A stretch of 34,968 bases of DNA, taken from positions 1-34,968 of the forward strand of contig DASYUH010000092.1 of NCBI GenBank assembly GCA_036001465.1, given 5' to 3'. Source of the stretch: Candidatus Polarisedimenticolia bacterium (GTDB lineage: Bacteria; Acidobacteriota; Polarisedimenticolia; Gp22-AA2). Every line of letters starts with the position of its first letter. Positions within the stretch are counted from its first letter, which is position 1. A program made the translations under genes and the position numbers. The notes beneath the pieces are model-generated. The model was not told the DNA's origin. It saw only the letters and a list, made by a program, of their open reading frames with translations, and did no database searches. Shown here one piece after another: positions 588 through 21,483 of this stretch.

Positions 588-1181
588 CTAGCCTGCGTCA
601 CCGCCGGCCTCGTCCGCCGGCTTCCTGTTGAACCGGTTCATTGCGATCGCCAGGCCTTCCGACAGCGCCAGCTCGGCGCAGTCGGCCGCCTGGGCGACGA
701 TCCGGGGCAGCTCCTTCTGCTGCCGACGCGGAAACCTATGCAGCACGAACTCGGCGTGCGGCTCGCCGGCATCGACGGGGCCCACCCCGACCCGCAGCCT
801 CGCGAAGGCTTGCGTTCCCAGGGTCTCCACGATCGACAGGAGGCCGTTGTGCCCCCCGGGGCTGCCGCGCGGCCGGAGCCGGATGGTGCCGAAGTCGAGG
901 TACAGATCGTCGCAGATCACCAGCAAATCCTCCGGTCCCGCACCCGCCAAATCGAGCAGTGCGGCCACCGCCGCCCCGCTCCTGTTCATGTAGGTCATGG
1001 GCCGCGCCACGATCGCCTCGGAGCCGCCGATCGCCACACGGCAGACGAGCGATCGGGCGCGCCGCGCCTCGTAGGGGCTCCCCCTCCGGCCTGCAATCTC
1101 CTCCGCCACGAGGTAGCCGATGTTGTGGCGCGTGGCCGCGTAGTCTTCCCCGGGATTGCCGAGACCGACCAGCACCTTCAC
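588..1181 (-). CDS. pth: Peptidyl-tRNA hydrolase
   Basis: Cleaves the ester bond of peptidyl-tRNAs released by stalled ribosomes, recycling tRNA in the cytoplasm. The 197-residue protein has the family signatures: LVGLGNPG at the start, the catalytic His at residue 19 in TRHNIG, Asn66 in PMTYMNRSG, Asp91 in the ICDDLYL segment, and Asn112 in GGHNGL. Length matches the family. The start is GTG. It lies 23 bases after rplY and 20 before rpsF, so it is part of the rplY-pth-rpsF-rpsR run. The family assignment is secure. Confidence 0.96.
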   Translation of the reverse strand: MKVLVGLGNPGEDYAATRHNIGYLVAEEIAGRRGSPYEARRARSLVCRVAIGGSEAIVARPMTYMNRSGAAVAALLDLAGAGPEDLLVICDDLYLDFGTIRLRPRGSPGGHNGLLSIVETLGTQAFARLRVGVGPVDAGEPHAEFVLHRFPRRQQKELPRIVAQAADCAELALSEGLAIAMNRFNRKPADEAGGDAG

Positions 1182-2030: not shown

Positions 2031-2999
2031 TCAGACGAACAGCGAGCTGACCGACGAGTTCGTATGAATGCGCTTGATCGCTTCTCCGAGGATCCCCGCC
2101 ACCGAAAGCACGGTGATCCGGCCCGCCTTCCTCTTCTCCTCGCTGATGGGAATGCTGTTGGTCACGACGGTCTGCAGCATCTCGGACGAGCGGATGCGCT
2201 CCACGGCCGGCCCCGAAAGCACGGCGTGGCTGAAGCAGCCGTAAATCGCCCGGGCGCCCTTGCGCGTGAGCGCCTGCACCGTCCCGGCGAGCGTCCCGGC
2301 CGTGTCGACGATGTCGTCCACGATCAGGCACGTCTTCCCCTCCACGTCGCCGATGACGTGCATCACCTTGGGCTCGTTCCCCTCGCCCCGCCGCTTGTCG
2401 ATGATGGCCAGAGCCGCATCCAGTCGCTTGGCGTAGGCCCGCGCCCGCTCCACGCCTCCGGCGTCCGGCGACACGATCACCGGGTTCTTGAGGTGGAGCG
2501 ATTCCACGTGCTCGATCATCACCGGCGCGGCGAACAGGTGATCCACCGGGATGTTGAAGAACCCCTGGATCGCCGGGGCGTGGAGGTCCATGGCGAGGAC
2601 GCGGTCGGCGCCCGCCGCGGTCAGGAGGTCGGCCACGAGCTTCGCGGATATCGGCACCCGAGGCTTGTCCTTGCGATCCTGCCGGGCATAGCCGTAGTAA
2701 GGAAGTACGGCGGTGATGCGGGCCGCCGACGAACGCTTGAAGGCATCGAGCATGACCAGGAGCTCCATCAGGTTCGCGTCCGCCGGGGTGCAGGTGGGCT
2801 GAATCACGAAGGCATCGGTGCCCCGCACATTTTCCAGGATCTGGCAGTAGGCCTCGCCGTCCGCGAACCGACGGCACTCGGTCTTGCCGAGCGGAATGCC
2901 CAGGACCCGGCAGATCTCCTGCGCCAGGGCCGGGTGCGCGCTCCCGGAGAAGACCTTCAGGTTGCTGGTGTCGAGTCCGCTCATCGCGCCGTTCCGCAC
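2031..2999 (-). CDS. prs: Ribose-phosphate pyrophosphokinase
   Basis: Makes PRPP from ribose 5-phosphate and ATP for nucleotide, histidine and tryptophan synthesis. The protein has the family blocks in order: LKVFSGSAHPALA near the start, the ATP-loop segment YYGYARQDRKDKPRVPIS, the DLHAPAIQGFF metal/ATP segment, and the PRPP-binding loop LIVDDIVDTAGT. Its 322 residues are normal for the family. A GTG at 2999 is chosen because GGAGG lies six bases upstream. An ATG at 2984 (five codons later) is the alternative and gives the more usual N-terminus. It is preceded by tRNA-Gln and followed by a terminator. Confidence 0.96.
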   Translation of the reverse strand: MRNGAMSGLDTSNLKVFSGSAHPALAQEICRVLGIPLGKTECRRFADGEAYCQILENVRGTDAFVIQPTCTPADANLMELLVMLDAFKRSSAARITAVLPYYGYARQDRKDKPRVPISAKLVADLLTAAGADRVLAMDLHAPAIQGFFNIPVDHLFAAPVMIEHVESLHLKNPVIVSPDAGGVERARAYAKRLDAALAIIDKRRGEGNEPKVMHVIGDVEGKTCLIVDDIVDTAGTLAGTVQALTRKGARAIYGCFSHAVLSGPAVERIRSSEMLQTVVTNSIPISEEKRKAGRITVLSVAGILGEAIKRIHTNSSVSSLFV

Positions 3000-3532: not shown

Positions 3533-4435
3533 TCAGTCGAACGCCGCGCGTCTCCGATAGTCCCGACTGTTGATGGGCACGCTCCGCATGACCGTGAACC
3601 CCGAAGGGCCTATATCGGCCAGCGCCCGCTCCGCGGCCGCCGCGGTCCTGAAGATTCCAAACACGGCCGAGCCGCTCCCGGTCATCGCAGCGGCCGACGC
3701 CCCCGCGACCAGCAGGCGATCCTTGATTTTCCCGATGGCGGGACAGAGCGCGCACGCATATGGCTCCAGATCATTTCCTGCGCGCACCCACGTCTCGACT
3801 TCCCTGGGGAAGTCGTCCTCCGGGGTCTGGTTGAAGCGAGGCATAGTACTGATTTTCAAGGCAGATGTCAACGGCGCGACGACTCGCCCGTAGACCTCCC
3901 GCGTCGAGATCGGGATGCGGGGAAAGACGATCAGGACCTCGAAGCCCTCGAGGTCGGGGAGGGGCCGGACTTCCGTCCCGGTTCCCGTCAAGAGGGCGGT
4001 TCCCCCGGTCAGGAAGAACGGCACGTCCGATCCCAGCGTGGAGGCGAGGCCCGCAAGCTCCCCATCGGACAGATCCAGGTTCCAGAGGCGCCTCAGACCG
4101 ACCAGGGCCGCGGCCGCATCGCTGCTCCCTCCCCCCAGGCCGGCACCTGTGGGAATCCGCTTCTCCAGCCGGATCCGTGCGCCGCGAGGGCCGTTTGCAA
4201 GCCGGGGCAGGAGGGCCTCCGCCGCCTTCCACACCAGATTGTCCGGCCCCGCCGCGAGGTCCGGATCGTCGATGTCCAGGACAAGACCCGCCGGGACCGC
4301 GTCGAGGATCAGCGTGTCGTGCAGGCTGACCGTCTGGACCGCCGATTCAATGAGATGGTACCCGTCCGGTCGTCGGGCCTTGATGGTGAGATTGAGGTTG
4401 ATCTTGGCGTGCGCCTTGAGGCGGATCCGGGTCAA
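3533..4435 (-). CDS. ispE: 4-diphosphocytidyl-2-C-methyl-D-erythritol kinase
   Basis: GHMP-family kinase of the MEP isoprenoid pathway that phosphorylates CDP-methylerythritol with ATP. It shows the N-terminal AKINLNL segment with the substrate-binding Lys, RRPDGYHLIES, the ATP-binding loop PTGAGLGGGSSDAAA, the catalytic-Asp segment LGSDVPFF and the C-terminal MTGSGSAVFG. The frame stays open up to 4561, but homology begins only at LTRIRLKAHAKINL. The TTG at 4435 is therefore taken as start. It overlaps the stop of the LolB-like gene (TTGA), giving 300 residues, a normal length. No strong ribosome-binding site is seen, consistent with translational coupling. Confidence 0.93.
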   Translation of the reverse strand: MTRIRLKAHAKINLNLTIKARRPDGYHLIESAVQTVSLHDTLILDAVPAGLVLDIDDPDLAAGPDNLVWKAAEALLPRLANGPRGARIRLEKRIPTGAGLGGGSSDAAAALVGLRRLWNLDLSDGELAGLASTLGSDVPFFLTGGTALLTGTGTEVRPLPDLEGFEVLIVFPRIPISTREVYGRVVAPLTSALKISTMPRFNQTPEDDFPREVETWVRAGNDLEPYACALCPAIGKIKDRLLVAGASAAAMTGSGSAVFGIFRTAAAAERALADIGPSGFTVMRSVPINSRDYRRRAAFD

Positions 4436-5274
4436 TTCTCCCGGGTTGCGTCCCCCGGGTCCAGGAGGCCCTGAAGGTCCGGTGAACGGCCCGGCGTCCG
4501 CTCCCGAAACCCCTCCGGGATCGCCGGGGACACGATCTCTTCGGAGACGTTTCTGGCCCAAGGTCCCTCCACGGCGGAGAGATCCACGGTGCCCTCCTTG
4601 CGAGGCAGCCGCAGCTTGATTTGCCTGGGCCAGCGAGGGCCGAGGCCCTTCTCGTACTCGCCGTACTCGACCTCCAGGATGATAGCACCGCTGATTCCTT
4701 CTCGAACGACCGCCGAAATCAGCGTGCCGCCGCGTTCGGCGCAGCGGGCCTGATAGCGGATCTCGCCGGGCGGGCAGGACACCTCATACCACGAGACGGT
4801 GCGGCCGAAAGTTGCTGCGGGCCGGGTCTGGACCTCGACCCGGACCGACTCCGGAGGGCACATGGGCCTCCCCGTGAACAGGGAAACGACCCCCGCCGCG
4901 TCGAGCGGCACGCCCAGGAGCCCTTCCAGTGCCCGCTCCGGGGACCCGGCGCGCTCGAATACCCTTTCCGAGGGCCGGAGCGCCACCGCCTGGTCCCGCG
5001 TCGCCGCGATGATCAGGCGCGGTCCGCCTGCCGGGCCATAGAATTCCATTCGCAGCCGGTCGGGGGGCAGCAGGGTCACCGCGAGCCGGAACCTGATCCT
5101 CCCTTCCGGCCCATCGGATTGTCCCCGGAAGAGCGCCTGATAACCGGGCTGCCCCGGCAGAGTCCCGGATCCCGGCGCGATCGAGCCGCCCGTGGTGCAG
5201 GCCGGACCGGCGAGACAGAGGGACCCCAGGACGGCGAGGAGTGCCCGAGTCATTCCCGGGCGCGCCTCGCTCAT
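4432..5274 (-). CDS. LolB-like outer-membrane lipoprotein (predicted)
   Basis: A 280-residue exported protein with a hydrophobic signal sequence (ALLAVLGSLCLAG, about residues 10-22) followed by Cys in GPACTTGG. The lipobox is imperfect, so lipidation is inferred. After a Gly/Pro-rich linker comes RIRFRLAVTLLPPDRLRMEFYGPAGGPRL, an alternating beta pattern like the half-barrel of LolB/LolA or DUF4292 proteins, which carry lipoproteins to the outer membrane. The direct neighbour downstream is ispE, as in Escherichia coli lolB-ispE, which supports the reading. Similarity is weak, and a generic DUF4292 lipoprotein is the alternative. The ATG overlaps the TPR gene's stop (ATGA). Confidence 0.65.
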   Translation of the reverse strand: MSEARPGMTRALLAVLGSLCLAGPACTTGGSIAPGSGTLPGQPGYQALFRGQSDGPEGRIRFRLAVTLLPPDRLRMEFYGPAGGPRLIIAATRDQAVALRPSERVFERAGSPERALEGLLGVPLDAAGVVSLFTGRPMCPPESVRVEVQTRPAATFGRTVSWYEVSCPPGEIRYQARCAERGGTLISAVVREGISGAIILEVEYGEYEKGLGPRWPRQIKLRLPRKEGTVDLSAVEGPWARNVSEEIVSPAIPEGFRERTPGRSPDLQGLLDPGDATREN

Positions 5275-7238
5275 GGAGTCACCGGGCGGGCGGATTCGAT
5301 CTTGAGGATCTTCTTGCGCACCCGCTCCGGCTCTTCGTGCCCCGAGGCCAGGGCCGCCTGCCACTCGCGCACCGCCTCGTCCTGTCTTCCGGTCTCGCGA
5401 AGCAGATCGCCCAGGTGCTCGTGGATCGTCGGGTCGGACGCGTCATAACGGAGAGCGGCACGCAGGTGCTTTTCAGCCTCGCTGTAGAGCCCCATCCGGA
5501 AGCGGACCCAGCCGAGGCTGTCGAGGTAGGCGGCGCTCTTCGGATTGATCTGCAGGGCCCGCTCGACGTAGCCGACCGCCTCGGTCAGCTTCACGCCTCG
5601 ATCGGCCAGCATGTACCCGAGATAGTTGAGCGCCATGGCGTTTTTCGGGTTGACCCGGATCGCCCTGGCCAGAAGGCGCTCCGCGTCCGCATGCTTCCCC
5701 AGCCGCTCCAGGGCGGCGCCGCGGGCGAAGAGCAGGGCGTCGTCCCCCGGGTGGCGGCCGGTCGCCTCCTTGAGCACCGCGTCCGCCTCTGCGTAGCGTT
5801 TCTGGCGCAGGAACGCCTCGGAGACACGGGCATAGACATCGGACGATCCCCCCGCCTCCTCGATCAGAGCCTTGAAGTGCTGCCGCGCGTCCCCCTCCTT
5901 CCCTGTGGCGATCAGGATCTCGCCGCTGAACACCTTGGCGTCGAGATCGTCGGGGAAACGTCGCTCGGCCTCGACGGCGACCCGCCGGGCCTCGTCCGGC
6001 TTGCCGCCGAGCATCTGGGCGCGCGCCAGAAGCAGGAACAGCTCGGGGCCCGGATCGCCGGCGGAATTGAGCGCCTCGACGAAGGACTCGCTGGCGTCAC
6101 CGTAACGGCGGCCCTCGAGCTGCAGGATGCCGATTTGCGAAAAGGTCAGTGCCAGGACCGCGGCTTCCCGGTCGCTCACCGCCCCCCTTCCGTTCGCCAG
6201 CTCGATGATCTCCCGGTACTGAGCGAGGGCCGTCTCCACCTCGCCGTCCTTCTGCCGCAGGCGCGCCATCTGAAAGCGGGCCTCGAGATTCGCCGGCTCC
6301 TTCCGGATCAATCGATCGCAGGCGGCGATCGCCTCGTCGATGCGTCCCGCGCCCTCGTAGGCCTGCGCCAGCGACAGCAGGCTTCGGGAATCCCCGGGGT
6401 CGGCCTCCAGGGCCTTGAGCAGCTCCGGGATCGCCTCGTCGTTCCGGCCCGCCAGCAGGTGCAGGGACCCGATTCGCCCGTGCAGGTAGACCGAGTCGAC
6501 CGACCGCTCGAGGAGATCGGTGTACAGGGCAATGGCCTCGTCGTACTTCTTGCCGTATTCCAGGACGGCCGCCAGGGCATCGGCCGCCTCCAGATTGCCG
6601 GGCGATCGCGCCACGAGACGGGACAGGACCTTCTCCGCTTCCTGGGCACGGCCGGTCCGCGCGTAGACCTTGCCCAGGAGCAGGGACAGGGCGGGGTCGA
6701 GAGGTTGCCCGCTGCCGAACTCGAGGATCGTCTCCCCGGCTTCCTTGAGGCGGCCGGTGTGGTAGTACAGCTCGGTGAGGGCCCGGCACGAATCCCCATC
6801 CGCGGGGTTGGCCCGCAGGGCGGCACGATAGCGTTCGATCGCTTCGCCGATCTGGGCCTCGGCATCGCCGCCTTCACGGGCGCGTCTCAGGTGGATGTCA
6901 CCGAGGAGTTTCTGGGCCGGCGCCATGCCCGGATCGGCGGCGACGATCCGCTCCGCGAGCACCGAGGCGCCGGCCAGGTCGCTCAGAGAAAATTTGAGCT
7001 GGGCCAGCTCCAGCAGCAGGGAGGGGGATGAATCGGTCCGGGTGGCGTTCTCCATCTGCTCCAGGGCGTTGATGTAGTCTCGTTCGAGAATCATCTGCTG
7101 CGCCAGCGAATAATGATAGTAGGCCTCCGGCTGCGCCGGGTTCCGGCCCGGCCCCGCGGCTCCGAGCGCTCGGCGCTCGGAGGCGAGGAGCAGGATCGAC
7201 GCGACGAGGATCGCCCGGGTCCATCGTCCGGATCTCAT
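5271..7238 (-). CDS. Exported tetratricopeptide-repeat protein
   Basis: A 655-residue protein with an N-terminal signal peptide (AILVASILLLASERRALGA), followed almost entirely by TPR helical hairpins. The TPR spacing of 34 residues and the usual A/G/Y/P positions repeat, for example AEKVLSRLVARSPGNLEAADAL, AIALYTDLLE, AIPELLKALEADPGD and AVGYVERALQINPKSAAYLDSLGWVRF. There are perhaps 14-16 repeats. Such proteins are scaffolds; the partner is unknown. It overlaps the upstream kinase stop (ATGA) and the downstream lipoprotein start (ATGA), so the three are translationally coupled. This suggests an envelope assembly role with the LolB-like protein. Confidence 0.88.
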   Translation of the reverse strand: MRSGRWTRAILVASILLLASERRALGAAGPGRNPAQPEAYYHYSLAQQMILERDYINALEQMENATRTDSSPSLLLELAQLKFSLSDLAGASVLAERIVAADPGMAPAQKLLGDIHLRRAREGGDAEAQIGEAIERYRAALRANPADGDSCRALTELYYHTGRLKEAGETILEFGSGQPLDPALSLLLGKVYARTGRAQEAEKVLSRLVARSPGNLEAADALAAVLEYGKKYDEAIALYTDLLERSVDSVYLHGRIGSLHLLAGRNDEAIPELLKALEADPGDSRSLLSLAQAYEGAGRIDEAIAACDRLIRKEPANLEARFQMARLRQKDGEVETALAQYREIIELANGRGAVSDREAAVLALTFSQIGILQLEGRRYGDASESFVEALNSAGDPGPELFLLLARAQMLGGKPDEARRVAVEAERRFPDDLDAKVFSGEILIATGKEGDARQHFKALIEEAGGSSDVYARVSEAFLRQKRYAEADAVLKEATGRHPGDDALLFARGAALERLGKHADAERLLARAIRVNPKNAMALNYLGYMLADRGVKLTEAVGYVERALQINPKSAAYLDSLGWVRFRMGLYSEAEKHLRAALRYDASDPTIHEHLGDLLRETGRQDEAVREWQAALASGHEEPERVRKKILKIESARPVTP

Positions 7239-8728
7239 GGGCGGGCCGATCCCGCCGGGGGCTCGTCGAATCGCGCCTTCAGGCGTTTGGTCATCGGGCT
7301 GACCGAGACGGTCAGGACCTTCTGTTCGTTGGGCCGGAAGTCGCCCTGGATGCCGACGATGTCATCGAAGCTCTTCCCCGACACGACACGAACCTCCACG
7401 CGATGAGTGCCCGGAGCGACCCCGAGGGTCCGCATGAAACGACTCCGGCCCGAGGCGCTCCTGAGCTTCTCGTCCACAAGCGGTGAGCCGTCCAGGCGCA
7501 CTTCGATGCGCCCCGACTCGAAGCGGTGCTGCAGGGTGAGCCGAAGGCGGGCGGTCTGGGCAGCCCATCCCTCCGCCTGACCGGGAGCCCCGGCCAGCCC
7601 CGCGAGAGACCCGGCGGGCGCCGGGGACGTCAGGAGGCCGAGCGGCTGGGACCCCGATCGTCCCGCCGGTGAACGGTACAGGAGGAACGGCGCCGAGGCG
7701 AGCAGGACGAGGCAGATCAGAAAGGCGACCCAGCCGATCCCGAGGGGCGATCCGCTCGGAGCGAACAACCGCGCGAACCGGGGGGCCAGAAAGACGATGC
7801 CGCGCGATCCGACGGAGACCGGTTCCGACGCCGGACCCTTCCCATCCTCCCGCGAGACCAGCGTGGGCGGCTCCGACTGCTTCGCCGAGTCGCGCCACTG
7901 CTCCACGGCGGCCTTGAGGTCCGCGACCAGATCCTGGCAGCACCCGTAGCGATCCGAGGCAGACTTGGCCACAGCCTTGCGCAGGATCCGATCGAAGGAA
8001 GGCCGGAGCGCAGGATTCAGCTTCGAGGGAGGAGGCGGGTCGACGTTCACCACCTGGTAGGAAATGGCGGTGACGCTGTCGCCGACGAAGGGCTTCTCCC
8101 CCGTGAGGAGCTGGTACAGGATCACGCCGAGCGAGAACTGGTCGGACCTCCCGTCCACCTCCCCCCCGATCACCTGCTCGGGAGACATGTAGTTCGGCGT
8201 GCCGAAGAATTTCCCCGGGCGGGTCAGTCCGCCTGCCACGAGCCGGGCGATGCCGAAATCGAGGATTTTGGGCTGGCCACTCTCGGTCATCAGGATGTTC
8301 GCCGGCTTGATATCGCGGTGGACGACACCGTTCTCGTGGGCGTAGTCCAGGGCCTGCGCCAGCCTGTCCATGACATCGGCGACCTGCAGGAGCGGCAGGC
8401 GGCCCCCGCCGGCCAGGAGGTCGTGCAGATTGGTGCCGGTCACGTACTCCATGGCGATGTAGGCGTCCTCACCGGGCGCCTTTTCGCCCACGTCGTAGAT
8501 GGTGACAATGTGAGGGTGATTGAGCCGGCCGGCGACCTGGGCCTCGTGATAGAAGCGGTGCAGGAACTCCTCTTCTTCGTTGGGACCGAGCGGGAAGGAG
8601 AAGGCGATCGTCTTGAGAGCCACGATGCGGCCGATTCGGGGGTCGCGGGCCTTGTAGACGAGGCCCATCGACCCGCGGCCGATCTCCTCGAGGATTTCGT
8701 AGCGACCGATCGCCTTCGGCATCCCCAT
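7235..8728 (-). CDS. Membrane-anchored Hanks-type Ser/Thr protein kinase
   Basis: A 497-residue transmembrane kinase. The cytoplasmic N-terminal kinase domain (about residues 8-275) has the glycine loop GRGSMGLVYKA, Lys39 in VALK, catalytic Asp139 in HRDIKPAN, Asp157 in DFG and MSPEQ in place of APE; all key residues are present. A proline/serine-rich linker leads to one membrane span (GWVAFLICLVLLASAPFLLY, about 330-355). A periplasmic beta-rich tail follows (RIEVRLDGSPLVDE... GTHRVEVRVV), resembling a PEGA-like domain. Its substrates are unknown. It is coupled to the TPR gene by an ATGA overlap. A second ATG two codons on (8722) is an alternative start. Confidence 0.93.
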   Translation of the reverse strand: MGMPKAIGRYEILEEIGRGSMGLVYKARDPRIGRIVALKTIAFSFPLGPNEEEEFLHRFYHEAQVAGRLNHPHIVTIYDVGEKAPGEDAYIAMEYVTGTNLHDLLAGGGRLPLLQVADVMDRLAQALDYAHENGVVHRDIKPANILMTESGQPKILDFGIARLVAGGLTRPGKFFGTPNYMSPEQVIGGEVDGRSDQFSLGVILYQLLTGEKPFVGDSVTAISYQVVNVDPPPPSKLNPALRPSFDRILRKAVAKSASDRYGCCQDLVADLKAAVEQWRDSAKQSEPPTLVSREDGKGPASEPVSVGSRGIVFLAPRFARLFAPSGSPLGIGWVAFLICLVLLASAPFLLYRSPAGRSGSQPLGLLTSPAPAGSLAGLAGAPGQAEGWAAQTARLRLTLQHRFESGRIEVRLDGSPLVDEKLRSASGRSRFMRTLGVAPGTHRVEVRVVSGKSFDDIVGIQGDFRPNEQKVLTVSVSPMTKRLKARFDEPPAGSARP

Positions 8729-8873: not shown

Positions 8874-10046
8874 TCAGGCGGCGTTCCTGTCGGCCGGTCG
8901 CGACACCCCTCGCAGGTACTCGATCGCCTTCTTCAATTGCGGATCGTCCGAATCGGTCGGTCGGCCCTCGATGGCCAGGTCGGGCTGAATCCCCTGTCCG
9001 TGCCACTCCTTGCCCGAGGGGGACTGGAGCCTTCCCGTAGCCAGGAAGATGCCGTCTCCCTGCTGCAGGGGCAGGAGAGCGCGCACGGCCCCCTCCCCCC
9101 AGGTCTTCTGGCCGACGATGGGCGCGCTCCGATCGTCGTGCAGTGCGGCGGCCAGGACCTCGCAGGCCCCGGACGTCCCTTCGTTCACCAGGACCACGAG
9201 CGGGCCGGACCAGACACGGCGCCGTCCGTCGGCCTTGTAGGCCTTGTCGCCATCGTAGCGATCGGTCACCGTCACGATCGTTCCGTCGTTGATGAACAGG
9301 CTCGCGGCGCCGATGCCTTCGGCGAGGCTATCCGACGAGCAGCCGCGCAGGTCGAGCAGGAGCCTCGCCGCGCCCCGCTTCTTGAGGCCCGCGATCGCCT
9401 GGTCCAGACGTTTCGCGTCCCCCTCCTGCAGGGCGGCGACCCGCACCACGCCGGCGTCGGGAGCCTCGAGAGTCCCGGAGGGGGCCGGCGGCGCGAGCGT
9501 GCGGCGGGTCAGCTCGATCGTCTTCCGCCCCGCGGCCGCGACCGGGCTGACATTGAGGGTCACCTTGGTCGAAGGCTTGCCGCGCAGGGCACGGGACGCC
9601 TCCCAGACCCCCATGAGTCGCGTCGATCGGCCGTCGATCATCACCACGACGTCCCCGGTCTGCATCCCGGCCTCCGCCGCGGGGGAGCCGGCCTGGACCG
9701 ACACCACCACGAGGTAGCCGCGCCGCTTCGAAAGGGTCAGCCCGGCGCCGGCCGGACCTCCGGCGTCTCCACGGAAGGCCTTTTCGTACTGGACGGGGCT
9801 CAGGTACTCGTTGACCGGATCGAGGGACTCGAGCATGCCGCGGTACGCCCCCTCCATCAGGCCGTCCAGCTGCACGGGCTGGACATAGTTGTGGACGATG
9901 AGATACAGCGCCTCGTTGAACAGCTTGAGATAGCTGTAGGTGCCCTCCACCGCAACGACTCGTCCCATCATCGCCCCGGAGACACTGAACAGGACGAGCG
10001 CCGTGGAGAGGACCAGCATCAGTTTTCTGTCGGCCGTGATCTTCAT
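8874..10046 (-). CDS. S41 (Ctp-type) family protein, catalytic dyad apparently lost
   Basis: A 390-residue exported protein with an N-terminal hydrophobic segment (LMLVLSTALVLFSVSG), a PDZ domain (about GAGLTLSKRRGY to KVTLNV) and a C-terminal S41 fold. Known Ctp proteases have GSASASE with the middle Ser as nucleophile and a Lys 25 residues later in TFGKG. Here the aligned segments read GTSGACE and TWGEG, so the nucleophile position is Gly and the Lys is Glu. It probably binds substrates or partners without the standard cleavage mechanism. The start is ATG 10046 with GGAGG just upstream; the frame opens at a TTG at 10064. It lies 14 bases after the EnvC-like gene. Confidence 0.85.
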   Translation of the reverse strand: MKITADRKLMLVLSTALVLFSVSGAMMGRVVAVEGTYSYLKLFNEALYLIVHNYVQPVQLDGLMEGAYRGMLESLDPVNEYLSPVQYEKAFRGDAGGPAGAGLTLSKRRGYLVVVSVQAGSPAAEAGMQTGDVVVMIDGRSTRLMGVWEASRALRGKPSTKVTLNVSPVAAAGRKTIELTRRTLAPPAPSGTLEAPDAGVVRVAALQEGDAKRLDQAIAGLKKRGAARLLLDLRGCSSDSLAEGIGAASLFINDGTIVTVTDRYDGDKAYKADGRRRVWSGPLVVLVNEGTSGACEVLAAALHDDRSAPIVGQKTWGEGAVRALLPLQQGDGIFLATGRLQSPSGKEWHGQGIQPDLAIEGRPTDSDDPQLKKAIEYLRGVSRPADRNAA

Positions 10047-10060
10047 CAGTCCTCCGATCT

Positions 10061-11368
10061 TCAAGGAACCCTGCGGGATTCCCGCTTGATGCGAGGTGCC
10101 GCGGGCTTGCGCTCGGCCACCCGGCCGGGCAACCCGCGCAGCCAGGCGGCCGGGTCTTCGGGCTTGCCGTCGTGACGGATCTCGAAATACAGCCCCGGCT
10201 GCTCGAACGACCCCCCGGCCCCGGAGCGCGCGATCGGATCGTCCCTCTTGACATCGTGCCCGGCGGCGACCAGACGCTCATCCACGTGACCGTAGACCGA
10301 GAGGTACCCGTCGCCATGATCGATGACGACCATCTGGCCGTACCCCTTGAACCAGTCGCTGAAGACGACCCGGCCGTCGAAGACCGCCCGAACCTCCTGG
10401 CCCGGCGCCGAGGCGATGTCGATGCCGGGGTGGGGCACGATCGTGCTGAATCGCGGGTGGCGCATGTTGCCGAAGGGGACCGCCAGGCGGCCGCGCGCCG
10501 GCCAGTCGAGCAATCCGCGGAAGCGGGCGAACCCCAGGGACGGCACGCCGGCCGAGGCATCGGGACGGGCGAGGCGATCCAGGAGGGAGCGGATGTCCTG
10601 CTCCACCTGCAGGAGATCGCCCAGCATCTCTTTCTGAAGCGACTGCCGTCGCTGCAGCCCCGCCAGGATCGACTGCTTGCTGCCCCGCGCCTGCCTCAGA
10701 TCCCGGGACTTCCCGTGCAGCGCCGCCTGGAGGGCGCGCAGCGAGGCGTCCTTGCCCTCCAGATCGGCGAGCACCTCGTCCAGGCGGGCGCGGTCCGCCC
10801 GATAGTCCTCGACGCGCCGTGCCTCGGAGAGGCTCAGCGCCTCGATCGATCGGTAGCCCGCGGCGATCTGGGCAGGGGCCGAGGCGGCCGTCACCACACG
10901 CAGGTACCTCGCCGGTCCGATCTTGTACGTCTCCCGCAGGTAGCCCCGCAGCTCCTCCTCGGTCCTGGCCAGTTTCTGTTCCAGGGTCAGTGCCTCCAGG
11001 CGGGCCAGCCGCTCGCGCTCGGCGGTGCGCCCGAGCTCGTCCTTGAGCGACTCCGCCTCGCGCGACAGGAGCGCCATCCTGAGATCGAGCTCCTCGATCG
11101 AGTCGAGGACGGAGCCGGCGCTCGCCTCGGCCTCCACCAGGCGAACCTTGAGCTCCTCGATCTCACGCCGCACGCGATCGAGTCGCCCTTCCTCCTCCTG
11201 CCGGCGGATCTCCTTGAGACGGGAGGCATCGTCCTCCGGCGCGGCCCCGACGGGCGCCGGATTCACCGCACCGCACAGGGCCAGCGCCAGGAACCCCTCC
11301 ACCAGGAGCCTGCCCGGCCCAATACTCGGCCAGCCTCCTGGCCTCTCAGCGTGCGAGCGAGCGTCCAT
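10061..11368 (-). CDS. envC: EnvC-like murein hydrolase activator (LytM/M23 domain)
   Basis: A 435-residue exported protein. A signal segment (LLVEGFLALALCGAV) is followed by a long coiled coil (about residues 50-265, rich in Glu, Arg, Leu) and a C-terminal LytM domain: HPGIDIASAPGQEV, VFSDWFKGYGQMVVIDHG, YGHVDERLVAAG, GLYFEIR. True M23 endopeptidases end with an HxH zinc motif (HLHFE). Here it is GLYFE, as in EnvC, which has no hydrolase activity and instead switches on amidases for daughter-cell separation. HxxxD of the first motif is retained. ATG 11368 is chosen with GGAGG six bases before it; it overlaps the upstream gene's end by 23 bases. Confidence 0.87.
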   Translation of the reverse strand: MDARSHAERPGGWPSIGPGRLLVEGFLALALCGAVNPAPVGAAPEDDASRLKEIRRQEEEGRLDRVRREIEELKVRLVEAEASAGSVLDSIEELDLRMALLSREAESLKDELGRTAERERLARLEALTLEQKLARTEEELRGYLRETYKIGPARYLRVVTAASAPAQIAAGYRSIEALSLSEARRVEDYRADRARLDEVLADLEGKDASLRALQAALHGKSRDLRQARGSKQSILAGLQRRQSLQKEMLGDLLQVEQDIRSLLDRLARPDASAGVPSLGFARFRGLLDWPARGRLAVPFGNMRHPRFSTIVPHPGIDIASAPGQEVRAVFDGRVVFSDWFKGYGQMVVIDHGDGYLSVYGHVDERLVAAGHDVKRDDPIARSGAGGSFEQPGLYFEIRHDGKPEDPAAWLRGLPGRVAERKPAAPRIKRESRRVP

Positions 11369-13613
11369 CGATTCCTCCGACCGGCGGCACTCCGAGCAGC
11401 GCCAGGACCGTCGGGTAGATGTCGGCGATCCCGGGGGCGCCGAGCGCCAGCGGGGCACTGCTGAACAGCACTCCCGGCACCAGGGCCGGGTCGTTGGAGC
11501 AGTGGTCTCCGCTCCAGGCCTTCAAGTTGTCCTCGAACACCTGCGGCGGCACCTCACCGAGGGCGGTCTGCCAGCCGATCCTGTAGTGCGCGGTGTTGGC
11601 GGCCCGGAGATCCGGGATCAGCCGCGGGTCGAATCCGGAGTAGATCTCCTCCCGGCGGTAGACGCGCGCCACGGGCTTCTCTCCTGTTTCAGGATCGACG
11701 AGGTCCTCGAGCTTCCGGGCGATCGAGGTGCGCGTCTCTTCGTAGTCGCGCCCGGGGACCACGCTCCCCTGCGGCTCCCTCCCCATGAGGTTGATGTAGA
11801 TGTTGCCGAGCCCCATGGCGTACGCCCGCGTGCGCGACCAGTCCACATAGCGGAAGAACTCCCCCAGCTCCCCCTTGTCGAACAGGTCCTCGAGGGTCTT
11901 CCCTCCGGTCGAAGTCCCCTCCTTCAGGGTCATGAATCCGTTCTTGACCAGCCAGGTGTTGTAATTGATCCCCCTGCGGAACGACGCGAAGCCGTGGTCG
12001 GAGCACACGAAGAGGGCGGTCTTGGGCCCGATTCTCTGCATGGCCTCGCCTACGATCCGGTCCATGCGCTCGTACGACCGGGGAATCTCCTCCGCGTACA
12101 GCGCCGCCAGTCGGGCGTCGAAGAGCGGATGTCCTGGATCATGGAGCCGCCAGAGCATGTGTCCCACGCGATCGGTGAAGTCGAACACCTGGACGTAGAG
12201 GCGGTCCTCCCCGGTCTCGAGGAACCGCCGCATCATTTCGTCCTGCTTGGCGACCGTGGCCTCCATGTCCTCCAGGAAGTGCTTCTCATCGGTCAGCCCG
12301 GACGGCAGCGACCAGGTGTCGATCGGCCAGCCGAGAGTCTTGAACAGCCCGAACTCCCGGACCAGGTCGCCCGCGAAGGCGCGCGGCCGGGTGAACGGCA
12401 CCGGCTGGCTCTGTGGATGGAAGTTCAGCGGCGAGGCGTAGAGCCGCAGCTCGGGCGAGAGCGACAGGAGCTTGAAGCGGATGATTCCCGTCAGTCCGGC
12501 CACGCGGTCCACCACCGGGTTGACCGGAATCGGTACCACGAACCAGTCACTCCAGGATCCGGGGCGGAGGGTCTGGCGCGCCCCGGCCAGTTCAATGCTG
12601 GCGCTGTCGCCCGTGGCCTCGATCCGGAACGGCACGTCGAGTCGGCGCGCCACACCCCGCTCCGCCAGGCGCTTCTCCGCTTCCGAACGTGCCTGCGAGC
12701 GCGCCGCTCCCTCCAGGCCGCGGGTCGCGTCCTCCACCACGTAATCGTAGAACGGCTGGTTGAGGGGGCCGAAGATGACCGTGTCGATCGTGCCGCGCTT
12801 CGCCTTCAGGCGGACGATTTCCACGCTGAACTGGTTGTCCTTGAGCGCCAGCGCTTCGTCCGAGGTGTAGTACGACGGCGATCCGATGCGCCCGCGCATG
12901 TCGGGAACTCCGAGGCCGGACAGCATCCACTCGTTGTGATGGTCCTCGGCGGGAAACGTCGTCGGCACGTTCATGATCTTCACCCGCAGCCCCGCATCGG
13001 CCGCGGCGGTCCAGAAAGGCTCTCCCTTGCGTGGATTGATCGCGGTCGGCACCTCGTGGGGCAGGTAGCGGATCGACACGAGCGCCAGTCCTGCACCGGA
13101 CGCGACCGCGACCAGGGCCGCCCCCGCGAGCGCCGATGAGAATCGGCGCCGCACCACGTAGACCGCGATCAGGGCGAGGCTGCCCGCGACGCCGCCGCCC
13201 ATCAAGCCGAGAATCAGGGGGTTCCTCGCGCCGAAGAGGAGGGGCTTCCGTCCGACCTTGATCATGGCGAACTCGGGAAGGTACGTCCCCTCGGTGCGAC
13301 GCAGGAAGTCGAAGATCTCGGTCCGGCCGGGATTGAGGCCCGTGGTGAACGAAGCCCAGGACACCGGCGTCTGCGGCGGATTCGTCGGGCGGAGCGGCGC
13401 GTAGGACCCCTGGGCGCGCAGGCGCGACAGGTTGGGAAGCCGGCCCTCGGCCATGTAGTGCTCGACCAGATTGGCGTCCGCACCGTCGAATCCCAGAATG
13501 ACGACCTTCTCGAACGGGGTCGCGGCGCAGAGGATCGGCGCGAGCATCAGGATCAGGCGCAGCCACGTCGTGCTCGATGGTCTGGACCGTTCCTTAGAGG
13601 GGCGCGACTCCAA
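11346..13613 (-). CDS. Alkaline-phosphatase-superfamily membrane phosphodiesterase (predicted)
   Basis: A protein of about 755 residues of the type I phosphodiesterase/nucleotide pyrophosphatase kind. Metal and nucleophile motifs are visible: ILGFDGAD, NPPQTPVSWASFTTGLNPG (Thr82 probable nucleophile), FDFTDRVGHMLWRLHD, FVCSDHGF and GDHCSND. Two hydrophobic helices (NPLILGLMGGGVAGSLALIAV and SALAGAALVAVASGAGLALV) sit inside the domain after the nucleophile block. A signal-like segment (LRLILMLAPILCAA) comes first. The start is uncertain. TTG 13613 has GGAGG nine bases upstream; a GTG at 13658 lies two bases after the predicted transcription start and would be almost leaderless. The substrate is unknown. 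It is first in an operon with the EnvC-like and S41 genes. Confidence 0.83.
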   Translation of the reverse strand: MESRPSKERSRPSSTTWLRLILMLAPILCAATPFEKVVILGFDGADANLVEHYMAEGRLPNLSRLRAQGSYAPLRPTNPPQTPVSWASFTTGLNPGRTEIFDFLRRTEGTYLPEFAMIKVGRKPLLFGARNPLILGLMGGGVAGSLALIAVYVVRRRFSSALAGAALVAVASGAGLALVSIRYLPHEVPTAINPRKGEPFWTAAADAGLRVKIMNVPTTFPAEDHHNEWMLSGLGVPDMRGRIGSPSYYTSDEALALKDNQFSVEIVRLKAKRGTIDTVIFGPLNQPFYDYVVEDATRGLEGAARSQARSEAEKRLAERGVARRLDVPFRIEATGDSASIELAGARQTLRPGSWSDWFVVPIPVNPVVDRVAGLTGIIRFKLLSLSPELRLYASPLNFHPQSQPVPFTRPRAFAGDLVREFGLFKTLGWPIDTWSLPSGLTDEKHFLEDMEATVAKQDEMMRRFLETGEDRLYVQVFDFTDRVGHMLWRLHDPGHPLFDARLAALYAEEIPRSYERMDRIVGEAMQRIGPKTALFVCSDHGFASFRRGINYNTWLVKNGFMTLKEGTSTGGKTLEDLFDKGELGEFFRYVDWSRTRAYAMGLGNIYINLMGREPQGSVVPGRDYEETRTSIARKLEDLVDPETGEKPVARVYRREEIYSGFDPRLIPDLRAANTAHYRIGWQTALGEVPPQVFEDNLKAWSGDHCSNDPALVPGVLFSSAPLALGAPGIADIYPTVLALLGVPPVGGIDGRSLAR

Positions 13614-13666
13614 AACGGAGATCCTCCGACGGGTCAATGAGATACCGCGTGGCTGCACAGGGGCAA

Positions 13667-16585: not shown

Positions 16586-18865
16586 TCAGCCTTCGGAGCG
16601 ACCCCGGCCGTGCCCCGGCCGGGGTGTCGAAAGCTGCTGATCGCGGGCCAGCGGCAGCGTGAAGGTGAACACGGACCCCTGCCCGACTTCGCTCCGCACG
16701 GAGATGTCCGAGCCGTGCAGGCGCAGGATGTCCCTTACGATCGACAGCCCGATGCCGGTCCCCTCGTACTGTCGCCCGGCGCTGGCGTCCACCTGGTAGA
16801 AGCGCTCGAAGATTTTCTCCTGGGCTTCCTTCGGGATGCCGATACCGGTGTCGGCCACCTCCACCTCGAGGAAACCGCGAGGCCCCTTGCGCGCCGCCAG
16901 CGTGATGCGCCCTCCCTCCCGGTTGAACTTCACCGCGTTCGTGAGGAGATTGACGAGCACCTGGCCGATCTTCACCCGATCGCCGCGCACCACGAGCTCG
17001 TCGGTCTCGTATTGGGTCGTGACCGCGAGGTTTTTCCTGCGCATGCGCTCCCCCACCATCTCGATCGATTCGTCCACGACCTGCCACAGGGGGACGTCCT
17101 CGAGCCGCATCTGGGTCTCGCCCTTCTCGATGCGCGAGAACGACAGCAGGTTGTCGATCATCTCGATGAGCCGGTCGATGTTCTTCAGCGCCACTCCCAG
17201 GCCGCGCTCCTGCTCGGGCGTGAGCGGCCCGAGGCGGCGCTTCAGGATCATCTCCGTGTACCCCTTGATCGAGACCAGGGGCGTGTGCAGCTCGTGGGAC
17301 ACGTTCGCCAGGAGATTCGATTTCATCTCGTCGAGCGACTTGAGCTCGCCGTTCAGCTTCACCAGCTGCTCGTTGCGTTCCGCCAGGTCCTTCTGCGCCG
17401 TCGCCAGCTCCCGGCAGGCGGTCTCGAGCTCGGCCTTGGCCTTGGCCTGCTCCTCGAGGCTTTGACGCAGCCGATTCTCGTCCTCGATGCGCCGGGTCAT
17501 GTCGCGCGCCGTGAGGATCACGCCCCATTCGTCGCCCGAGCCGGAACGCACCGGCCCGGCCAGGAGATCCACGACGGCGTGACGGGGGCGCAGGAGCTCG
17601 AGCCCCTCCGCGCGCGTCTCGCGCCGGGCAGCCGCCTCCGCGAGCAGGGCTTCGATCACGCCCGGGTCGGCGGAACGCTCCCGCAGCAGGCTTCCGAGCT
17701 CCTCCACTCCCCGTCCCAGGAGCGCGTCCCGCGGCGCTCCGAACCGATCGCAGAAGGCGCGGTTCACGAGGGTGACCTCGAGACCCTTCCCGCCATCCTC
17801 GAGGACCAGGATGCCGTCGCCCGCCGACTCGAGGGTGGCCTGCAGCCGCGCCTCACTCCCCGCCAGGGCCCTCTCGCTGCGCGCGCGGCGGGTCACGTCG
17901 GTGACCGTCCCCACGAGGGCCGGCACGCCCTGGAATTCGGTCCGCGCCCAGGCGAGACGCGCTTCCACACTGGCCGACGAGGCGGACAGGAGGAGGCAGG
18001 AGATCTCCCCGGCCGTCTCGCGCCCCGACTGGGCGCGGCGCACCACTTCAAGGACGCGGAGGAGGTCATGGGTGTGGAGGATCGTCTTGATCGACGCGCC
18101 CTCGATCTCCTCGCGCCGGACGTCCAGCATGGACGCCAGGGCCGGGTTGGCGTAGACGAGACGGTCCCCCTGCAGGACGAAGACCCCGTCGGACATCCCC
18201 TCGACCAGGCTCCGATGGCGTTCCTCCGACTCCCGCAGCCGGACCTCGAGGCTCCGCTCTGCCGACAGGTCGCGGGCCGCCACGAGCATGCCCCTCCCGT
18301 TCCCCGGCAGCCCGGCAATCGACACCTGCGCCGGGAAGGTGCTGCCGTCCCGGCGGAGCATGGTCAGGGTTTCCGAGATGCCGGCCTCGCGCAGCGACCG
18401 GCGCGCCAGCTTGGGCAGGATCCGGTCCCACTCCCCGGGATGAAACAGCGACTCGACGTGTCTCCCGGCAATGTCCTCGACCGCCCATTGCGTGAGCGCG
18501 ACCGCGCCGCGGCTGAAGAACGTGACGCCCCAGTCGGAATCCGTGCCGACGACGGCCAGGTCCGGGGGGCCGGACGCCAGGCACTCTAGATCCGAGAACT
18601 GCCCGCGGGATTCCTCGAGACGTCCGCGCAGGTCCGCCACCAGGCCGTTCATCTCCCGGGCCAGCGCCCCGACGATGGGGTCGGGGTCCGCCGGCAGGTT
18701 TCCGATCAGGGGATGGCGGCGCACCTCCTCGACCAGCGCAGTGAGGCGGCGCAGCGATCGACGCAGGAGGCCGATGCCGAGGATGGCGAGCGCCACGGCG
18801 AGGACGCCGGCGAAGATGGTGACGCCGGCCACCAGGAGAAGGCTGGATTCGAGCGATGCGTCCAT
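16586..18865 (-). CDS. Multi-PAS sensor histidine kinase
   Basis: A 759-residue membrane-attached sensor kinase. Order of parts: one N-terminal hydrophobic helix (about residues 8-34), a short HAMP-like linker, three PAS-like domains (about 95-215, 220-345 and 350-470) and a coiled-coil segment. The kinase core follows: phosphoacceptor His524 in NVSHELHTPL, N box LLTNAVKF, G1 DTGIGIP, F box FERFYQ and G2 GTGIGLSIV. All core residues are intact. The frame is open far upstream, but ATG 18865 is chosen with GGGAG four bases before it, 14 bases after the EAL gene. It carries no receiver of its own, so the receivers encoded upstream are likely partners. Confidence 0.93.
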   Translation of the reverse strand: MDASLESSLLLVAGVTIFAGVLAVALAILGIGLLRRSLRRLTALVEEVRRHPLIGNLPADPDPIVGALAREMNGLVADLRGRLEESRGQFSDLECLASGPPDLAVVGTDSDWGVTFFSRGAVALTQWAVEDIAGRHVESLFHPGEWDRILPKLARRSLREAGISETLTMLRRDGSTFPAQVSIAGLPGNGRGMLVAARDLSAERSLEVRLRESEERHRSLVEGMSDGVFVLQGDRLVYANPALASMLDVRREEIEGASIKTILHTHDLLRVLEVVRRAQSGRETAGEISCLLLSASSASVEARLAWARTEFQGVPALVGTVTDVTRRARSERALAGSEARLQATLESAGDGILVLEDGGKGLEVTLVNRAFCDRFGAPRDALLGRGVEELGSLLRERSADPGVIEALLAEAAARRETRAEGLELLRPRHAVVDLLAGPVRSGSGDEWGVILTARDMTRRIEDENRLRQSLEEQAKAKAELETACRELATAQKDLAERNEQLVKLNGELKSLDEMKSNLLANVSHELHTPLVSIKGYTEMILKRRLGPLTPEQERGLGVALKNIDRLIEMIDNLLSFSRIEKGETQMRLEDVPLWQVVDESIEMVGERMRRKNLAVTTQYETDELVVRGDRVKIGQVLVNLLTNAVKFNREGGRITLAARKGPRGFLEVEVADTGIGIPKEAQEKIFERFYQVDASAGRQYEGTGIGLSIVRDILRLHGSDISVRSEVGQGSVFTFTLPLARDQQLSTPRPGHGRGRSEG

Positions 18866-18879
18866 GGATCTCCCGTCCT

Positions 18880-20226
18880 CTAGGTGTCTGTCCCACCGCG
18901 CGCGAGGACGGGAAACGCCGGCGCGGGACGGGCGAAGAAGAACCCCTGCCCGTAACGCATGCCGCAGGCCCGCAGAGCCTGGTATTCCTCCGCGGTCTCG
19001 ATCCCCTCCGCGATCACCCGCGTGCGCGTTCGCGCCGCGACCTGGAGCAGGGAGTGCACCAGATCCTGCTTGATCAGGCTCTGGTGGATGTTCTGGATCA
19101 GGGACATGTCGATTTTCAGGAAATCGGCCGCCACTTCGGAGACCGTCTGCAGCGAGGAATATCCGGTCCCCACGTCGTCGATCGCCACGAGGAAGCCGAG
19201 GCGGCGAAGCCGATCCAATTCGCGGCCGAAGGTCTCGAAATCCTCGATCCCGGTGCGCTCGGTGATTTCCAGCACCAGGTTGCCGGGATGCAGGTCGACC
19301 TCTTCGAGGAGGGCCTGGAGGTTCTGCTCCACCAGACCGGGGGTGCCGAGGGTCTCCGGCAGCGAATTGAGGAAGAGCTTCTTCGATCGGTCGAGCCCGC
19401 GGGCGTTGCGCAGCGCCTCCCGGCGGCACAGGATGTCGAGCTCGGAGGACAGGCGGTTTCGATCCGAGCAGGTGAACAGCGCCTTGGGCACTTCGAACGC
19501 CGTATTCGCAGGTCCGCGCGTCAGCGCCTCGTACCCCATGATGGAGGCGTCGTCCATGTCCACGATCGGCTGGTAATGGGTGGTGAGCCGTCCCTCTTGC
19601 ATGATCGAACGCAGCTCGGCGGCGCGCTCGTGATGCAGGCGGTCGGCCTCCCGCAGCGTCATGCCGCGGGCCTCGCGGATCCCCTGGTACACCATCCTCT
19701 CGTACCGTGCCGTGGGATTGGGCGACACCAGAGCGTAGCCGACGGAGAAGTCGACCGGCGGAGCCGGCGGGGCCCACGGCGCGTCCGCGAGCCGGACCGC
19801 CAGGTGGGCCGCCAGGCTCCCCGCGGCGTCCGCCAGATCGGGGATCGCGATCTCCTGGCCGCCCGGGCCTTCACGGAGAAACATCGTGAAGGCGTTCCCG
19901 TACACGCCGTCGAGTGAGATCAGCGTGTTCCCGGGGAAGATCCGGCTCTTCAACGCCTTGAGGTGCGCCGCCACCCCCGCCAGGAAGCGATCACCGAATT
20001 CCCAGCCGTGCGCCTGCTCCAGGGAACCCAACGACGGAAACTCGAGGACGATGATCCCCAGCCGGCGGCCGGCGCAGTGCATTTCGATCTGGTCGAGGTG
20101 GAGGGCGTACGAGGACAGCCCGGTGATCGGGTCGCAGATCGCTCCTTTCAGACGAAGGAACGAGGCGCGCAGCCGCCGGGTGTCCTCGGCGCCGCGCGCC
20201 GGATCCGCGTCGAGGACTGGCTTCAT
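18880..20226 (-). CDS. c-di-GMP phosphodiesterase: degenerate GGDEF plus intact EAL
   Basis: A 448-residue cytoplasmic protein. Residues 30-165 look like a GGDEF domain: DPITGLSSY recalls DPLTGLPNR. The GGDEF signature itself is replaced by DGVYGNAF, so it should not make c-di-GMP and may only bind GTP or mediate contacts. Residues 205-440 form an EAL domain with all metal and catalytic residues: Glu233 in YEALTRG, Asn287, Glu320 in LEITER, Asp350/351 in IDDVGTGYSS, Lys371, Glu407 in AEGIE and Gln427. It is thus predicted to cleave c-di-GMP. Its ATG overlaps the stop of the receiver gene (ATGA). Confidence 0.92.
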   Translation of the reverse strand: MKPVLDADPARGAEDTRRLRASFLRLKGAICDPITGLSSYALHLDQIEMHCAGRRLGIIVLEFPSLGSLEQAHGWEFGDRFLAGVAAHLKALKSRIFPGNTLISLDGVYGNAFTMFLREGPGGQEIAIPDLADAAGSLAAHLAVRLADAPWAPPAPPVDFSVGYALVSPNPTARYERMVYQGIREARGMTLREADRLHHERAAELRSIMQEGRLTTHYQPIVDMDDASIMGYEALTRGPANTAFEVPKALFTCSDRNRLSSELDILCRREALRNARGLDRSKKLFLNSLPETLGTPGLVEQNLQALLEEVDLHPGNLVLEITERTGIEDFETFGRELDRLRRLGFLVAIDDVGTGYSSLQTVSEVAADFLKIDMSLIQNIHQSLIKQDLVHSLLQVAARTRTRVIAEGIETAEEYQALRACGMRYGQGFFFARPAPAFPVLARGGTDT

Positions 20227-20633
20227 GCGGTCGCCCCGCGTCCCAGGGTCTCGAAGATCCTCCGCACGCGCGCCAGGAGCTCCTCGCAGGAGAACGGCTT
20301 GGCGATGTAATCGAACGCCCCCTCCTGCAATCCGTGGAGCTTGTCGCGCACTTCCATCTTGATGGAGAACATCGCGACCGGGATCCCGGTCGTCTTGTCG
20401 TCGACCTTCAGCATGCGGAGGACCTGCCACCCGTCCATGCCCGGCATGTTGATGTCGAGCAGGATGAGATCGGGGGCCGCCTCTTCGAGACTGCGCAGGG
20501 CCTCCTGTCCCCCCCGGGCCTGCATGACCCGGTAGCCTCCGCCCTCAAGGACCAGGCGGGTCATGTCCAGGATGTCGGCGTCGTCGTCCACCACCATGAC
20601 GATGGGAGCCGTCGTCCCCCCGGGAGCCGTCAT
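20223..20633 (-). CDS. Single-domain response regulator
   Basis: A 136-residue CheY-like receiver with no output domain. The acidic pocket is DDD (residues 16-18), the phosphoacceptor is Asp60 in LLDINMPGMDG, the switch Ser is Ser90 in MFSIK and the conserved Lys is Lys112 in AKPFS. All needed residues are present. It overlaps both neighbours by 4 bases (ATGA at each end), between the receiver-PilZ and EAL genes. It is probably phosphorylated by the histidine kinase of the cluster and may act on the EAL protein by direct contact; this is inference. Confidence 0.92.
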   Translation of the reverse strand: MTAPGGTTAPIVMVVDDDADILDMTRLVLEGGGYRVMQARGGQEALRSLEEAAPDLILLDINMPGMDGWQVLRMLKVDDKTTGIPVAMFSIKMEVRDKLHGLQEGAFDYIAKPFSCEELLARVRRIFETLGRGATA

Positions 20634-21373: not shown

Positions 21374-21453
21374 GGATGGCCTACCGGGAGGAGGCCTGCG
21401 TCCGGAAACGGCTGGATCGCGTATCTCCGCGACAGGTAGCGGCTTGCGGCTGG

Positions 21454-21483
21454 ACGATACCATAGTCGCGTTCGCCCAATCAA
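21454..21483 (-). promoter_or_regulatory. Possible promoter before the receiver-PilZ gene
   Basis: Minus strand: TTGATT (21483-21478), an 18-base spacer and TATCGT (21459-21454). Each box matches four of six consensus bases. It lies in the 168-base gap after the NtrC-type gene and would give a leader of about 75 bases. Confidence 0.3.

Follow-up and report, generated by a model that had tools for sequence, protein, structure and literature searches.

In Pseudomonas aeruginosa and Bordetella, EnvC and CtpA share one operon, and excerpts of the two reports put forward a functional link between them as a suggestion (PMC12569750, PMC8263021). The EnvC gene comes first in the ctpA operon of P. aeruginosa (PMC12569750, excerpt), and a Bordetella envC mutant resembles a ctpA mutant, for which the authors propose that EnvC may promote CtpA activity, an effect on ctpA expression also being possible (PMC8263021, excerpt). 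In vivo, the substitutions S302A and K327A each abolish the activity of P. aeruginosa CtpA, while the effect of H84A is moderate and that of Q331A small (PMC11021448, excerpt). CtpA-S302A still co-purifies with the TPR partner LbcA (PMC6050968, excerpt) and served for the structure of the CtpA-LbcA complex; LbcA is met by the hydrophobic face of CtpA (PMC11021448, excerpt). Another such pairing, of a PDZ protease with a TPR lipoprotein that controls cell-wall hydrolases, is Prc-NlpI of E. coli (PMC11021448, excerpt).

The window, that is, the whole stretch of 34,968 nucleotides analysed here from a Candidatus Polarisedimenticolia bacterium (contig DASYUH010000092.1), carries a tight row of minus-strand genes for a phosphodiesterase, an EnvC-like protein, an S41 protein, a kinase, a TPR protein, a lipoprotein, IspE, Prs, L25 and Pth (Table 1). 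It resembles the P. aeruginosa CtpA-LbcA system in that CtpA is among the best matches to the core fold of the S41 protein, in its EnvC gene, and in that an LbcA-like TPR gene and ispE lie downstream. The differences are that the EnvC, S41 and TPR genes stand in one cluster here and in two operons in P. aeruginosa; that LbcA is an outer-membrane lipoprotein, a cysteine for lipidation being absent from the TPR protein here; and that P. aeruginosa CtpA is an active protease whose Ser302, Lys327, Gln331 and His84 are all replaced in the window protein. Prc of E. coli is larger, monomeric and active, and its partner NlpI has four TPRs.

In Alphaproteobacteria, Piscirickettsia and, by the literature, Bordetella, the EnvC-CtpA pair likewise has envC ahead of the S41 gene. 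Four of the seven plasmid-collection records (Sinorhizobium, Rhizobium, Piscirickettsia and Methylobacterium) have an EnvC gene ahead of the S41 gene, EnvC being assigned in Piscirickettsia, where gpmI precedes the M23 gene, and in Methylobacterium by our own profile and not by the record annotation. Unlike the window protein, the S41 proteins of these EnvC-linked Pseudomonadota (L170, L171, L172 and L176) keep His-Ser-Lys-Gln, 4/4.

Table 1 Features of the gene cluster in the window, in window coordinates.
Feature	Position	Strand	Basis
Type I phosphodiesterase (PF01663), opening the conserved set	11346..13658	minus	Pfam
EnvC-like protein (coiled coil + LytM/M23; HxH reads GLY)	ORF 10061..11458; likelier start internal ATG ~11368	minus	Pfam, PDB search
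S41/CtpA-like protein, 390 aa, without Ser-Lys dyad	8874..10046	minus	
Hydrophobic N-terminal helix, residues 9-31 (membrane anchor or signal peptide)	9954..10022	minus	Sequence; model helix 5-30
N-terminal dimerisation region	9759..9935	minus	Alignment to CtpA
Val78, at the place of CtpA His84	9813..9815	minus	CtpA alignment
PDZ domain, residues 97-166	9549..9758	minus	Pfam
Peptidase_S41 domain	8973..9455	minus	Pfam
Gly293, at the place of nucleophile Ser302	9168..9170	minus	CtpA alignment
Glu318, at the place of base Lys327	9093..9095	minus	CtpA alignment
Arg322, at the place of Gln331	9081..9083	minus	CtpA alignment
Ser/Thr protein kinase (PF00069)	7235..8728	minus	Pfam
TPR protein, C-terminal third LbcA (PA4667)-like	5271..7238	minus	PDB sequence search
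Lipoprotein, lipobox-like LAGPAC	4432..5274	minus	Sequence; sub-threshold Pfam
ispE (ORF; match begins at residue 44-45)	3533..4561	minus	
prs, ribose-phosphate diphosphokinase	2031..2999	minus	
Ribosomal protein L25	1205..1927	minus	
pth, peptidyl-tRNA hydrolase	588..1181	minus	

Fold and active site of the S41 protein

By fold, the S41 protein of the window is CtpA-type, with an S41 domain, a PDZ domain and an N-terminal region. Its gene starts at an ATG at 10046, with GGAGG at 10051-10055, 14 bp past the EnvC stop. Peptidase_S41 (PF03572) matches the protein above cut-off (E=1e-33), alongside three PDZ models and a CtpB_N-like match, and TIGR00225 (prc) gives 208.6 bits, under its cut-off of 218.6. 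By sequence, the solved structures closest to it are CtpA from P. aeruginosa and from H. pylori (E=4e-45 to 3e-44). Our structure model is middling (mean pLDDT 73, pTM 0.53, 11 alignment rows) and unreliable in its domain arrangement; its core matches P. aeruginosa CtpA (7rpq) over 198 residues with an rmsd of 2.3 A and Z 26.9. CtpA structures head the fold ranking, H. pylori CtpA and B. subtilis CtpB being tied with 7rpq within 1 Z. The S41-like fold is also that of IRBP/RBP3 (Z 16.6-19.2 against the window model), a binding protein with a non-proteolytic role. It differs in being eukaryotic and 17-20% identical, and it has no EnvC or LbcA partners.

We aligned the window protein to P. aeruginosa CtpA (7rpq, E=3e-44; numbering offset 33). 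The alignment bears out what had been read from the motifs GTSGACE and TWGEG alone, that the nucleophile is Gly and the base Glu, and it adds changes at Val78 and Arg322, so that all four active-site positions are replaced (4/4). As CtpA activity is lost in the S302A and the K327A mutant alike, either Gly293 or Glu318 alone is expected to remove proteolysis, and by homology the window protein would be proteolytically inactive. Loss of the dyad in this protein and its relatives is well supported. Sequence supports the earlier note's view of a PDZ-bearing Ctp that has lost catalysis beside an EnvC-type activator, a view that, as described below, applies widely across the phylum.

Dyad loss across the Acidobacteriota

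Our first sample covered 60 Acidobacteriota genomes, with 87 S41 copies scorable at the two dyad columns. One or both of Ser and Lys are missing from 54 of the 87 copies and both are present in 33; a dyad-less copy occurs in 54/60 genomes and both classes together in 51/60. Because the classes are defined by these two columns, finding Ser+Lys in 59/59 copies of the enlarged set is circular; independent tests of the classes are EnvC linkage, His/Gln conservation and a tree calculated without the catalytic columns. His and Gln are also kept in all of the first 33 Ser+Lys copies, and His84 and Gln331 in 59/59 once added fetches had enlarged this set to 59. The nucleophile column of the 54 dyad-less copies reads Gly in 43, and their base column Leu in 22 and Met in 7, the rest being mixed. 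We dropped L036, L037 and L095, which miss the catalytic region, and L156_1770 (G010), which does not extend to the active site; the contig-end fragments L011, L014 and L022 are in the 54-copy count and out of the alignment and tree. The first sample omits about a dozen weaker S41 matches (E > 1e-21, mostly long multidomain frames).

The second sample consisted of 61 short-frame S41 hits in the other genomes of a 159-genome phylum search, picked by hand or by ranking among the matches listed. One match (L182) contains an internal stop codon, and L236, counted with the dyad-less copies, ends before the Lys column. Among the matches listed, 59/61 are dyad-less, including L233, which keeps Lys only, and one other copy with Ser only; the remaining two, L218 and L228 of family f34, both EnvC-linked, keep Ser and Lys. 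Within these 59 of the matches listed, the nucleophile column reads Gly in 55, the base column Ala in 16, Arg (still basic) in 15 and Glu in 10, with the rest mixed, and Gln331 is kept in 55. Given the retained Gln and the Ala, Arg or Glu at the base column, the loss pattern among the matches listed is milder than that of the window's class. L218 (G078) and L228 (G067) have Phe at the place of His84, and their EnvC proteins are without HxxxD too.

The first tree, from which the catalytic columns were removed, is unrooted and was built without bootstrap, with SH-aLRT support. In it, 51 full-length dyad-less acidobacterial rows are split by a 99% SH-aLRT branch from 68 others, namely 59 acidobacterial Ser+Lys copies, 4 EnvC-linked Pseudomonadota and 5 others. 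One of these five, a Calothrix plasmid S41 (L175:3737-4996) that keeps Ser and has Tyr for Lys, falls on the Ser+Lys side, possibly an independent loss.

The second tree omits half of the acidobacterial Ser+Lys copies, and L236. The f34 rows (L218 and L228) together with L233 form a branch of their own there, outside the 99% SH-aLRT branch of the Ser+Lys long copies; L218 and L228 lie on the dyad-less side, the placement of all three being weakly supported. The data do not support one universal loss, since L218 and L228 keep Ser and Lys, L233 keeps Lys, and all three fall outside the Ser+Lys long-copy branch of the second tree. From these residues and positions, either the dyad was lost repeatedly or family f34 retained the old state, probably one of the two. 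Dyad loss in the phylum is common and old, and it is not universal. For the S41 gene, 10 pairwise comparisons within a set of five relatives from the same genus or family gave dN/dS values of 0.13-0.34; it evolves under purifying selection, kept and not decaying.

EnvC and the LbcA-like TPR protein as neighbours

The EnvC-like protein matches PDB chains named EnvC with E=5e-25 to 2e-21 and scores 109.9 with the PRK11637 equivalog, under the cut-off of 270. Its LytM site, which the earlier note had called degenerate, is so in part: HxH is lost, reading G-L-Y, but HxxxD is present. Of 51 EnvC C-termini, 4 of them pseudomonadotal, none has the whole HxH and three have its second His. To judge from these residues, the degenerate site fits a role as amidase activator; the same genome encodes an FtsX extracellular-domain (FtsX_ECD) protein and one strong Amidase_3 protein as candidate EnvC partners.

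Among the copies scored in the first sample, 33/54 dyad-less and 0/33 Ser+Lys copies have EnvC within the flank retrieved, every scored copy with EnvC in its flank being dyad-less (33/33). In the Ser+Lys loci added later to reach the set of 59, no EnvC-profile match was found in any added locus. Two Ser+Lys copies (L081 and L085) have matches of 34 and 40 bits about 3 kb away, which we did not count as EnvC; most EnvC genes score 369-484 bits. The second sample has EnvC in the flank of 12/59 dyad-less and two Ser+Lys copies among the matches listed, so that 45/47 EnvC-linked acidobacterial S41 copies of both samples, the second again among the matches listed, are without the dyad. The idea that such proteins always lie next to M23 genes does not hold at these frequencies in the two samples (the second among the matches listed), and obligatory EnvC linkage was rejected, the scanned neighbours at L201, L205 and L220 being other genes. 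At L113:4954-6387 (G005) two overlapping frames share the EnvC gene between them, which may reflect a frameshift or an error of assembly.

For the TPR protein, the best natural PDB match is LbcA (E=1.2e-29), followed among natural proteins by one at 8.8e-18; one engineered TPR protein scores higher. Residues 430-646 align with LbcA 323-538, with the common block NAMALN-LGY-LADR...LDS-GW. No sequence match to the LbcA adaptor domain was found, and the model shows TPR-like helices from residue 35; the N-terminal signal region contains no Cys and hence no site for lipidation. The model is confident (89.7) and its fold search unspecific, LbcA ranking 8 and 17 with many eukaryotic TPR proteins alongside.

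Counts of neighbouring genes at the 54 dyad-less loci are lower bounds, as several loci end early, and the TPR match is the least specific of those used: there are at least 33 loci with EnvC, 33 with a TPR gene, 24 with the phosphodiesterase, 24 with ispE and 23 with both TPR gene and ispE. An LbcA-type motif, defined by a pattern of our own, occurs in 17 of these TPR genes. In P. aeruginosa, lbcA shares an operon with lolB and ipk (PMC6050968, excerpt). The sole Pfam match of the lipoprotein in the window is LolB, at E=0.027 and below cut-off. The window order of TPR gene, lipoprotein gene and ispE can be compared with lbcA, lolB and ipk of the Pseudomonas operon, ipk being presumably ispE. 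The downstream LbcA-like TPR gene, which the earlier note had missed, is a stronger clue to the binding partner of the S41 protein.

On the S41 side, L40, F43 and L47 of the window protein align with the LbcA-touching residues L46, F49 and L53 of P. aeruginosa CtpA. Among 51 dyad-less copies these residues recur in 34, 46 and 28, against 33, 27 and 49 of 59 Ser+Lys copies, a pattern compatible with LbcA binding and not diagnostic of it.

Between the TPR gene and ispE, a relative of the lipoprotein is found in 13/13 near genomes, its own included. In this genus and several other families the Ser/Thr kinase gene separates the S41 gene from the TPR gene; in others it was not seen there. A promoter/terminator scan gave no matches.

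A binding role and its alternatives

Our combined findings would fit an LbcA-CtpA-EnvC module that is dead as a protease and binds without degrading, a function to which we give roughly even chances. The window S41 protein would be a CtpA-type pseudoprotease that corresponds in nature to the CtpA(S302A) mutant made in the laboratory; as that mutant co-purifies with LbcA, a dead CtpA can still hold LbcA. The pseudo-CtpA may still use its N-terminal dimerisation helices to associate with the TPR protein, and its PDZ domain and blind substrate tunnel would bind the C-termini of cell-wall proteins. The complex would hold, shield or position its clients instead of degrading them, the likeliest clients being EnvC and the amidase that EnvC should activate, and proteolysis proper would be left to the separate Ser+Lys S41 copy. 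In these soil and groundwater Acidobacteria the wall-linked protein is dyad-less in most relatives covered and still often stands beside its usual partners, which suggests that it now binds proteins and does not cut them. Points against this reading are the two EnvC-linked Ser+Lys copies of family f34; the absence of EnvC from the flank of 21/54 dyad-less copies in the first sample and 47/59 in the second, among the matches listed; the retained Gln331 and the Arg at the base column in the second sample; and, in the TPR protein, the missing lipidation Cys, the lack of a sequence match to the LbcA adaptor domain and the unspecific fold search. We extend this only tentatively, at somewhat less than even odds, to a protease-free EnvC-CtpA-LbcA system run by the Acidobacteriota, with pseudo-CtpA and TPR adaptor capturing peptidoglycan hydrolases and EnvC undegraded. 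If true, the structural, non-proteolytic job of an EnvC-linked CtpA predates the loss and can outlive the enzyme.

The dyad-less protein might instead be a regulatory subunit of the Ser+Lys S41 protein of the same cell, tuning the active enzyme in mixed oligomers or by competing for substrates or the TPR adaptor. The co-occurrence of both kinds in 51/60 genomes is in keeping with this, as is the P. aeruginosa CtpA hexamer, in which only one subunit per dimer is activated (PMC11021448, excerpt). The two classes are, however, parted by the 99% SH-aLRT branch, and the Ser+Lys copy is encoded elsewhere (within 9 kb of it in G000, genes for LolA, a chaperonin and a glycosyltransferase can be recognised, besides two ORFs without a match), so we hold this to be rather unlikely. 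Were the S41 protein an accessory of EnvC only, docking on it to control amidase activation with the TPR gene as an unrelated neighbour, EnvC linkage in both Pseudomonadota and Acidobacteriota and the resemblance of the Bordetella mutants (PMC8263021, excerpt) would be accounted for; but family f4 includes 11 copies whose flank lacks EnvC, and the TPR gene and ispE are still present at four of them (L165-L167 and L169), which leaves this reading improbable.

The window protein does contain Ser292 and Cys295, and the earlier note had left room for an altered mechanism through the Ser of GTSG. A hydrolase with such a shifted nucleophile, or with different chemistry, would draw on the second sample, where, among the matches listed, Ser292 occurs in 14/59 copies (Ala in 44/59) and Arg at the base column in 15/59. 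Against it, the first sample has Ser292 in 3/54 dyad-less copies, with Ala there in 40/54, which brings Ser292 to 17/113 in both samples, the second among the matches listed; Cys295 is found in 9/54 versus 0/59 among the matches listed; and the shifted Ser/Lys pair sought in the alignment does not occur, 0 copies combining Ser292 with Lys at the base position. Conservation makes an altered Ser or Cys nucleophile very unlikely, and the claim is weak. The assembly is fragmented (114 contigs), as a decaying gene or assembly artefact might have it, yet frames are intact in separate genomes, the dN/dS values above indicate purifying selection and the finding recurs across the phylum, all of which contradicts such an explanation and makes it hardly credible.

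In the open-licence PMC literature searched, no paper turned up on an EnvC-linked Ctp that is catalytically dead, on an S41/Ctp pseudoprotease or on EnvC in Acidobacteria, a result that does not prove absence. S41 folds without protease function are already known (IRBP). A phylum in which EnvC-linked CtpA is mostly non-catalytic while its partners are kept sets binding apart from cutting and makes it testable why EnvC and CtpA occur together. Such genes should, with due caution, not be annotated as proteases. Elsewhere in the window, 16589-19777 encodes a PAS-rich histidine kinase and 20633-21463 a response regulator with a PilZ domain.
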